A stretch of 22,943 nucleotides of DNA, taken from a virus. This document shows, in pieces, positions 4,787 through 6,940 of this stretch. The stretch lies in the IMG/VR virus record IMGVR_UViG_3300017971_000182, positions 1 to 22,943 of that record. One strand, written 5' to 3'. Position numbers and translations under genes: made by a program. The notes under the pieces are model-generated. The model did not search any database, was not told the DNA's origin, and saw nothing but the letters and a program-made list of their open reading frames with translations. Positions within the stretch are counted from its first letter, which is position 1. The number at the start of each line of letters is the position of its first letter.

Positions 4787-5625
4787 GCTTGCTCCCTTGC
4801 CCATTTGGGCGGTTCGATGGTTAGAAGTTCATTCTGCCCCGGTGCGCTCCAATCGTCGGTTTCGATCGACCGGGCGAGATTGCAAATGTCGTGAGTGTTT
4901 TGCCCCCGGCCAATCTCGATGTAGGCCGCGTCCAATCTGTACACGTATACATCGTGCGGCGGGGCCTTGCCCACGACGATGAAGATCCACTCTGCCGGGA
5001 TCGTCTTCGCGCCGAGTTCGGCAGCGATGCCATCGAGGTACCACGCCGCCTGCCGATGGTAGCCCCACTGCCAAATCGCTCCCGCCCGTCGAGTCTCACC
5101 GTCGATCAGACCGGAGAATCCCCCCGGGCTCGGATCGACTGCGGTTTTGAGGTCGACGCAAATAACGTGCTCCGGCAGTCTGATCAGCAAGTCGGGTTTG
5201 CACTTGCAGGCGAGCCCGGTTTCATCATGCCAGTAGATCGGCTGTTCTACCACGCCCCCGGCTCCCAGTAGTTTTGCCGCCTCGGGGTGGGCCGTCACCG
5301 CGTCGGCTGTGAGCGCGGCCGCTCTGTACTGCGAAGGCAAGAGCAGTTCCTTGCCGGCCTTGTCGGATTCCGCTTTGGCCTCTTTCCATTGGTTGCCACG
5401 CCGGTGGTCGAGGGCGGCGATTTCGTATCGCTCCGCCAACTCCTCCGGCTCAAGCAGCAGACAGTGCACCAACGAGCCGAACACCTGATCGGGCGTCGAA
5501 GGCGGCCGGGGGATCGTGCCGGTCACGAATCGCCCGTGGTACTCGGCCGGCGATCTGCGGTAGACCTCAAGCGTCGAGTGCGACACGCGGGCCGTGTCTG
5601 CGTGGTATTCATCGTTTGGGTTCAC
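4783..5625 (-). CDS. PD-(D/E)XK exonuclease (RecE / exonuclease VIII-like)
   Basis: This 280-residue protein begins at a GTG inside the last codons of the replication gene (17-nt overlap), preceded by AAGGAAGG. An N-terminal VSHSTLEVYRRSPAEYH segment and FGSLVHCLLLEPEE at 49-62 match the first helix and GxxxH region of the family. The nuclease core is VEQPIYW (Glu127), KPDLL (Asp145) and CVDLKTA (Asp158, Lys160), then a WGYHRQAAWYLDGI helix at 187-200. RecE-type enzymes digest 5' ends to expose 3' single strands for the annealing protein encoded directly downstream. The length is typical of the nuclease domain alone. Confidence 0.85.
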   Translation of the reverse strand: MNPNDEYHADTARVSHSTLEVYRRSPAEYHGRFVTGTIPRPPSTPDQVFGSLVHCLLLEPEELAERYEIAALDHRRGNQWKEAKAESDKAGKELLLPSQYRAAALTADAVTAHPEAAKLLGAGGVVEQPIYWHDETGLACKCKPDLLIRLPEHVICVDLKTAVDPSPGGFSGLIDGETRRAGAIWQWGYHRQAAWYLDGIAAELGAKTIPAEWIFIVVGKAPPHDVYVYRLDAAYIEIGRGQNTHDICNLARSIETDDWSAPGQNELLTIEPPKWAREQA

Positions 5626-6442
5626 TTAGTTTGCCTTCCTTTTTGGGTTTGGGTGGTTTAAGAAGTTGGGCCGGCACTTCTACCGCCGCCATCAACGCGG
5701 CGAAGTTTTGGCCCAACTCCTCAGCCCCCCGTTTCAAGCAGGTGGTCAGGTAGGCTGGTTTCGATCGACACCCCACCTTGGCGTCAACCGCCCCGACGGC
5801 GGAGGAGAGCCACGCCTCAGGCATGGGGCCGTACAATTCGAGCGCGCAGGCTTTCAAGATCAATCCTCGATTCTTCTCCGTCAGTTGCAGCCGGAGTTTC
5901 CGTTGGATTCGCTGCGCGGAACTTCGTACTTCCTCCCAGTCAATTTCCCTCAGTCGATCGATTCGATCGATTCGATTCGAATCGATCAATCCGTTGGATT
6001 GGATTGGATTGGATTGGATTGGATATGCGGTACGCCGTACCGTTTCGTCGGTACGCTGTTGGTACGCTGAAACGGCGTACACCGAAAGCCCTTCTCGGTG
6101 GGGGTAGCAATCCAGGAAATCTAACCCCGCTCGATTCAGCCGGGCCCGCACGTATTTCTCACAATGGCAAGGCCAGTCGTGAACTATCAGCCGGTACTCT
6201 GGGTGGGTGTCTAAAAACCCCGCATCTACTAGGGCGAGCACGAATTCCGTGGGCCGATCCGGGGACCACTCGCACGCTCGAGCGATCGTCGGATCGGGGA
6301 ACTTGCCAATGTCGCCCCGTGGCGCAAATTCGCCACAGTAGTCCCAAAGAAGGGACAGAATTCCTATAGCTTCTGGCCGGCTGCAACCGAGCAGCGCGGC
6401 CAGATTGTATAGTTTTGGGTGGCGATAACACTCACGTTTCAC
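5609..6442 (-). CDS. Putative replication initiator / replisome organiser with winged helix
   Basis: This 277-residue protein starts at GTG 6442 after GGGGAGG (8-nt gap). Residues 1-95 look like a winged-helix DNA-binding domain of the phage replisome-organiser type: YRHPKLYNLAALLGC, a helix ILSLLWDYCGEF, ARACEW, and a wing ending in DAGFLD then LIVHDW. Residues 119-165 are low complexity (Ser, Asn, Ile, Arg, Asp) because their DNA carries iteron-like repeats. Residues 170-277 are basic and helical and end in a lysine/proline-rich tail. The arrangement mirrors lambda O, whose gene contains the origin between its two domains. No helicase, polymerase or loader is visible nearby, so host enzymes would be recruited. 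Initiator function is inferred. Confidence 0.62.
   Translation of the reverse strand: MKRECYRHPKLYNLAALLGCSRPEAIGILSLLWDYCGEFAPRGDIGKFPDPTIARACEWSPDRPTEFVLALVDAGFLDTHPEYRLIVHDWPCHCEKYVRARLNRAGLDFLDCYPHREGLSVYAVSAYQQRTDETVRRTAYPIQSNPIQSNGLIDSNRIDRIDRLREIDWEEVRSSAQRIQRKLRLQLTEKNRGLILKACALELYGPMPEAWLSSAVGAVDAKVGCRSKPAYLTTCLKRGAEELGQNFAALMAAVEVPAQLLKPPKPKKEGKLSEPKR
5954..6081. repeat. Iteron-like repeats inside the replication gene; candidate origin
   Basis: Three blocks stand side by side. First, at 5954-5990, overlapping TCGATCGATT/TCGATT units carry three GATC sites. Second, at 5996-6025, GGATT occurs five times in tandem followed by GGATA. Third, GGTACGC occurs at 6029, 6050 and 6061, that is 21 and 11 bp apart, close to two and one helical turns, with related inverted GTAC-containing sequence at 6034-6041 and 6074-6080. 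The blocks coincide with the low-complexity linker of the encoded protein. Repeats inside an initiator gene match the lambda-type origin plan; origin function is inferred. Confidence 0.6.
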
Positions 6443-6514: not shown

Positions 6515-6940
6515 TTAGCTAGCGGGCTCAATCTCAAAACGCACGATAACAGCTTGCTTGCGATAAATGACCCGCGCACCGTTAAGATTGCAATCACACA
6601 GATTGGCCTCGCTCAGATCGGCACCGCGAAGATCGGCACCGCTCAGGTTGGCACCGTTAAGATCGGCACCGTTAAGATCGGCATCGCACAGGTTGGCACC
6701 GGTTAGATCGGCACAGATCAGACGGGCACCGCGCAGATCGGCGCGGCGAAGATCGGCACCGCTCAGATCGGCGCGGCGAAGATCGGCACAGATCAGACGG
6801 GCACCGCGCAGATCGGCGCGGCGTAGGTTGGCATCGCGCAGATCGGCGCGGCGAAGATCGGCATCGCGCAGATCGGCGCGGCTCCCGGTCTCGGGGTCCT
6901 GCAGCCACGCCGCGTGCTCTGCCAGGATTTTTGAGTTCAT
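6515..6940 (-). CDS. Pentapeptide repeat protein
   Basis: This 141-residue protein has its ATG overlapping the upstream stop as TAATG, with GGAG about 10 nt upstream. Residues 21-125 are 21 uninterrupted pentapeptides of the A(D/N)LxX type, such as [20 protein letters not shown] and GANLS. They are capped by a short N-terminal helix ([12 protein letters not shown]) and a beta tail ([15 protein letters not shown]). Such arrays fold as a right-handed quadrilateral beta-helix; some members (Qnr, MfpA) mimic DNA and bind gyrase. Here it is an early gene just before the replication initiator, so a gyrase- or DNA-binding-protein-directed role is plausible but unproven. Confidence 0.92.
6705..6823. 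repeat. Duplicated DNA segment in the pentapeptide gene
   Basis: A 44-bp stretch starting AGATCGGCACAGATCAGACG occurs at 6705-6748 and again at 6780-6823 without mismatch. The offset is 75 bp, which equals five pentapeptides. Shorter near-identical 30-bp-spaced copies (GATCGGCGCGGCGAAGATCG) surround it. The identity, including third codon positions, indicates recent expansion of the array by duplication. Confidence 0.85.

Follow-up and report, generated by a model that had tools for sequence, protein, structure and literature searches.

The stretch of DNA analyzed here, the window, is a 22,943-base IMG/VR virus record whose genes include those for terminase, portal, capsid, RecT, RusA and an exonuclease. 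On its minus strand, at 5609-6442, lies a replication initiator gene of 277 codons with a GTG start. Residues 2-103 of the product match phrog_9474, "replication initiation protein" (E=1.2e-16), which establishes homology for the N-terminal domain. This was the sole PHROG match at E≤0.01, and a comparison with Pfam gave no family at E≤0.1, the lambda-O-type and AAA+ families included. Relatives of the initiator are annotated as replication initiation protein, primosome or DnaD. No recognizable helicase loader gene adjoins the initiator gene within the window. Directly upstream, at 6515-6940 on the minus strand, there is a gene for a pentapeptide-repeat protein with a 15-bp DNA periodicity; unlike the repetition in the initiator linker, this one is a protein-level repeat.

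An earlier note on this DNA, made without database searches, had described a winged-helix protein gene with repeats in its linker-coding part, and the AlphaFold model bears this out with a confident prediction for residues 1-110 (helices and a two-stranded wing, pLDDT mostly 94-98). The winged-helix DNA-binding domain comprises residues 1-104 (6131-6442, minus strand) and is the part by which 68 relatives were found. The linker, at about residues 120-155, is modelled with low confidence and predicted to be disordered; it leads to a helical C-terminal part (residues 155-277; 5612-5980, minus strand) with a pLDDT of about 42-77. Neither sequence nor fold searches of the PDB with the initiator gave a significant match, and many of the best fold matches, all below significance, were winged helices of the MarR, ArsR and GntR type.

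Three classes of motifs had been reported in this linker-coding DNA, and all three were found in their places when the positions were re-checked in the window sequence. The repeats are real, and the strand on which they were first described has to be corrected: since the gene is read from the minus strand, its sense units are ATCCA and CGTACC. In the sense direction the order is CGTACC boxes, then (ATCCA)x5, then ATCGA/TCGA units. The boxes, which are candidate iterons, occupy 6028-6081 (minus strand), with copies at 6029-6034, 6050-6055 and 6061-6066 that are 21 and 11 bp apart; between them 6036-6041 is an inverted copy, and 6076-6081 is a variant box. Read on the plus strand they are GGTACGC at 6029, 6050 and 6061, again at spacings of 21 and 11; the window has three plus-strand copies of this motif, all in the linker region, and one reverse complement elsewhere. 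The short tandem array (5994-6024, minus strand) encodes PIQSNPIQSN and is a candidate opening or single-strand-loading element; on the plus strand GGATT begins at 5996, 6001, 6006, 6011 and 6016 and is followed by GGATA. A second block of short units, delimited by Tandem Repeats Finder at 5954-5987 (minus strand), encodes LIDSNRIDRIDR and holds TCGATCGATT twice, at 5954 and 5963. The description "iteron-like", at first extended to the whole region, suits the CGTACC boxes only, the ATCCA array being a different, second module. The earlier emphasis on GATC-bearing units has to be abandoned: GATC is common throughout the window, with 220 sites in 22.9 kb, more than twice the simple expectation of about 90, and its presence in the ATCGA units is therefore no evidence. 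GATC as a site marker was dropped for the same reason.

How far do these repeats stand out from the surrounding DNA? When all 22,943 bases were scanned, the ATCCA array was the only strong period-5 site (20/20, with 13/20 for the next best), and its score was reached by none of 2,000 dinucleotide shuffles of 5901-6100. Taken by themselves, the 11-bp boxes stand out less: their score of 11/16 is reached by 30 of 2,000 dinucleotide shuffles. With synonymous codons redrawn and the protein kept, period 5 in the window linker has P=0.011; the P=0.001 obtained for periods 10-12 is overstated, 10 being a multiple of 5. GC skew is unable to place an origin: the window is probably a fragment, and along it the cumulative skew declines, interrupted by no more than a flat stretch at about 5-9 kb.

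A scan with the single protein found no relatives, and an alignment of the winged-helix domain was required. This domain, aligned with five distant cultured-phage relatives, yielded 57 viral and 11 genome loci, here called the first family, of which 61 non-redundant genes were analyzed; apart from the window itself, their sampling was independent of repeats. A second family of initiators (MPNRIIKES..., PHROG 5810/1408/2149) was represented by 80 loci fetched by its own winged-helix domain, and 63 of them were analyzed. Profile comparison of the two winged-helix families did not support homology between them. As controls, 1,006 segments of ordinary coding DNA, rather than matched disordered linkers, were used, and their 99th percentile was the threshold for repeats, taken as the best of several periods; the mismatch between controls and linkers is partly answered by the synonymous-codon null described below and by the absence of enrichment at most multiples of three. 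Linker repeats exceeded the threshold in 79% of the 61 first-family genes and in 84% of the 63 second-family genes, the latter frequency being less neutral since that set was seeded from repeat-bearing members. In the same genes none of the winged-helix-coding parts (0%) and 0-2% of the C-terminal parts did so. About a fifth of the relatives fall below the cut-off, and a few, such as L192 (a partial match), L074, L098 and L111, have little repeat signal. Two relatives in PHROG 9474, Paenibacillus phage Harrison and Faecalibacterium phage FP_Lagaffe, also have 5-bp linker repeats; they resemble the window initiator in their N-terminal domain and differ from it in the unit sequence and in the C-terminal part.

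For the period spectrum, 255 nt at and beyond the end of the winged-helix part were examined, a gene being counted if a 20-nt stretch scored at least 16/20. In comparison with 398 control segments from neighbouring genes, the 61 first-family genes were enriched at periods 5 (0.31 vs 0.008), 6 (0.30 vs 0.018), 10 (0.31 vs 0.008), 11 (0.23 vs 0.008) and 12 (0.31 vs 0.018); their share was 0.02-0.07 at periods 3, 4, 7, 8, 13 and 14, and 0.10 at period 9. The 63 second-family genes also peaked at 5-6 and 10-12 and were near zero at 7, 8, 9, 13 and 14, while the further peaks of the spectrum, at 15, 18, 20, 22 and 24, are multiples of the 5-6 and 10-12 bp periods. It could be supposed that such repeats grow neutrally as microsatellites, by slippage that accumulates in a linker tolerant of it, and the predicted disorder and low complexity of the linker, together with the fast turnover of unit sequences, would suit this explanation. 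However, slippage within a coding sequence would be expected to give mainly periods divisible by three, whereas it is 5, 10 and 11 that are enriched and 3 and 9 barely are. Neutral growth also leaves aside that the short array is usually preceded by a box array, and that one exact unit, ATCCA, forms arrays in initiator linkers far more often than other units do (26/38 against 0/23, 0/11 and 3/80); we consider it very improbable.

The comparison of relatives that the earlier note had proposed gave the outcome it expected: short-period arrays and 10-12 bp boxes are kept at the same place, which is also that of the candidate iterons of the window, while the linker peptide drifts. The encoded peptides differ among relatives (PIQSN, AKPSQ, NQTKP, RVDKS, PEPEPE, SSSS). 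At p≤0.01 the synonymous-codon null was exceeded at periods 10-12 by 52% of first-family and 60% of second-family genes, at period 5 by 31% and 52%, and at period 6 by 15% and 27%, respectively, as against 2-8% of genes at the control periods 3, 7/8, 9 and 13/14. The same hexamer may be read in two frames: AATCCG yields NPNP (three genes) or SESE (five genes), and GCCAGA yields PEPE (six genes) or QSQS (one gene). The synonymous-codon nulls and the identical hexamers in two frames show that the linker repeats are under selection as DNA, and the claim that the pattern is held at this level and not by the protein is upheld, as the periodicity exceeds what the peptide requires. On the winged-helix tree, counting well-supported branches, the arrays persisted while their period switched, at least seven times for each of the two most frequent labels. 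An explanation by protein selection, in which the protein requires a hydrophilic linker of repetitive sequence and the DNA repeats are a by-product, could appeal to the simple peptides that hexamer units yield (PEPE, SESE, SSSS) and to the many other genes with GCCAGA arrays. The synonymous-codon null and the reading of one DNA hexamer in two frames speak against it, as do the unrelated pentapeptides that 5-bp units encode at the equivalent place, and we find it scarcely credible.

The order of the two modules is also usual in the relatives. In the first family, strong box arrays precede the short array in 32 genes and follow it in 6, and in the second family they do so in 30 and 8 genes; the median gap between boxes and array is 37 nt and 25 nt, respectively. 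The boxes are spaced at 10 bp in the second family and at 10-12 or 20-24 bp in the first, and the short units are mostly of 5 or 6 bp, sometimes of 4, 7 or 8. AATCC is the usual unit of the second family, its steps being 5 bp in 129 cases and 6 bp in 130, while the boxes vary among phages; shared 6-mers have a mean of 0.38 in the arrays of this family, of 0.12 over the box region and of 0.04 where the winged helix is encoded. That the array unit is common to more phages than the boxes are may be a hint that something besides the winged helix reads it. In second-family locus L104 an extra domain separates the winged helix from the repeats; boxes and array are shifted together there, which suggests that the two work as a unit. 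Extra domains before the repeat region look nuclease-like by eye in L104 and L111, both of the second family, and HNH-like in L098 of the first. The sense strand of the arrays has A over T in 35/47 and 44/48 arrays of the two families, and C over G, and its complement is T- and G-rich.

The arrangement recurs, with other units, in cultured phages and in other initiator groups. Among the cultured relatives of the second family, Bernal13 (L198) has 11-bp boxes followed by an 8-bp GGAACAGG array, SOVA965 has 11-bp boxes and then GGAGAA, Mock2 has AGAAC, and E. coli phage Louie has 7-bp units. In the initiator genes of the mycobacteriophages Bernal13 and Babsiella (L200), the GGAACAGG arrays are perfect 8-bp tandem repeats that come after box-like repeats. 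Several Phage_rep_org_N initiators in bacterial genomes have AGAGAT hexamers, some of them with boxes spaced at 24 bp. PF07120 gave no match in 118 genomes of one class.

What, then, does the short array do? In the window its G+C content is 39% vs 56% for the whole gene, and it includes the gene's least stable 40 bp; the arrays of relatives average 57% vs 59%, with stability ranks that are only modestly low. A general AT-rich opening element is unsupported: in most genes the array neither is rich in A+T nor differs much in stability from the rest of the sequence. Strict half-turn geometry was likewise dropped as a rule, cultured phages having 7- and 8-bp units. A broader form of the latter idea is an in-gene origin in which both modules are duplex sites, the array offering half-turn-spaced sites to the initiator or to a protein that bends DNA, with opening elsewhere. 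Periods of 5-6 and 10-12 do equal a half turn and a full turn of B-DNA, but helical phase would be lost in the long pure 6-bp arrays, which reach about ten units, and in the mixed 5- and 6-bp spacing of the second family, and the longer units of its cultured relatives do not fit either; we regard this alternative as rather doubtful. We lean towards reading the short array as an opening or single-strand element and not as a second duplex-binding site.

The ATCCA unit can be followed beyond the two samples. A scan for the exact ATCCA array pattern matched 38 viral stretches, and by blastp 26 of the 38 have an initiator winged helix in the array-bearing frame, compared with 0/23 for control pentamer arrays (Fisher P=2e-8). 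Initiators accounted for 0/11 of the AAGCC arrays and 3/80 of the GCCAGA arrays; as perfect arrays of these two units show no such concentration, ATCCA is the one unit that is diagnostic on its own. Most of the 26 initiators belong to the second family, and ATCCA units are also used by the window and by L182, the relative closest to it (a Lentisphaerae bacterium contig). Exact ATCCA arrays were also seen in intergenic DNA or in the 5′ leader of other phage genes (L017, L018, L010, L038, L016), L017 having at least three matches in a row.

Origins inside the initiator gene are already known from lambda and from P335 phages, and the repeated CGTACC boxes at 6029-6066 of the window, which lie between the modelled domains and are conserved as DNA in relatives, have the same in-gene iteron layout. 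The parallel with lambda O drawn in the earlier note holds for the position: in both, the initiator gene has its repeated boxes where the linker is encoded. In lambda the annotated iterons are followed by an A-rich stretch with a weak 5-bp periodicity. The parallel fails for the iterons themselves, which in lambda are longer and about two turns apart (four of 18 bp at a spacing of 20-24 bp), whereas the window boxes have a 6-7 bp core and lie 11 and 21 bp apart. The window initiator also differs from lambda O in having no Pfam match and no adjoining P-like loader gene, and neither homology to the lambda O family nor its 18-bp iterons at 20-24 bp spacing were found. Phage 80alpha has an annotated putative origin inside its initiator gene (gp20), with AAT-rich 3-bp repeats. 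The closest layout is that of Tuc2009 rep, annotated "contains origin of replication", in which four 11-bp boxes of the CAACCAAATGT type are followed by about eleven pentamers of the AGGAT type. According to one paper (PMC8965321), Rep2009 and TP901-1 ORF13 bind direct-repeat regions within their own genes, and these regions serve as ori. The Tuc2009 gene resembles the window in having the origin inside the initiator gene and the two modules in equal order; in TP901-1 the origin is also inside the initiator gene, ORF13, with a 15-bp repeat only and no clear short array. Box and unit sequences of both phages differ from those of the window, and the likeness is one of layout.

Initiators often autoregulate, and this habit, along with the inverted box copies in the region, would be in keeping with the boxes being an operator or another cis site, for autoregulation, recombination or packaging, and not an origin. 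Such a role accounts poorly for a location in the middle of the gene and for the tandem array adjoining the boxes, and the layout matches that of Tuc2009, whose in-gene repeat region is reported as ori (PMC8965321). We hold it to be quite unlikely. As the earlier note proposed, the linker-coding DNA of the window initiator is very probably the phage replication origin, a conclusion drawn from the repeats and supported by the relatives, the synonymous-codon nulls and the Tuc2009 layout.

The origins of Vibrio cholerae ori2 and of plasmids with Rep proteins are located outside the initiator gene. They nevertheless offer a mechanistic model for the short array of the window: RctB, the initiator of ori2, and plasmid Reps bind duplex boxes as well as short single-strand repeats in the opening region (PMC10797057), the RctB repeat being 5′-G/AATCA-3′ according to the same review. 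In the window phage single-strand binding is putative. The DnaA-trio is another short tandem repeat beside duplex boxes, which guides the initiator onto one strand (PMC10797057). It differs in that its repeat has 3 nt and is recognized by DnaA, an AAA+ protein, whereas the phage units have 5-6 nt, the window array has a period of 5 and the window initiator has no AAA+ match.

Taken as a whole, an in-gene origin of two modules, with binding at the boxes and opening at the array, is the best explanation and a likely one. The gene's own winged helix most likely binds the CGTACC boxes as double-stranded DNA. Winged-helix domains would fill the first module, whose boxes are about one or two helical turns apart; the second, the 5-bp array directly downstream in the sense direction, would then open, and one separated strand, held by the repeated units, would have the replicative helicase loaded onto it. 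In open papers, to which our search was limited, we found no description of the two-module plan, of its breadth or of the shared AATCC unit. We put forward as a tentative possibility that many tailed phages with different winged-helix initiators have a common two-module origin, in which the 5-6-nt array is a DnaA-trio-like strand-loading code and the unit, for example AATCC, is read by a constant factor, perhaps the host helicase or its loader.

For most phages known only from metagenomes the origins are unmapped. The layout described here, a winged-helix gene with 10-12 bp boxes and a 5-6 bp linker array, would make it possible to locate origins in the sequences of many phage groups and would account for the strong repetitiveness of initiator linkers. 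Should the array be a single-strand element, the strand-loading code would extend beyond DnaA and RctB to phages.
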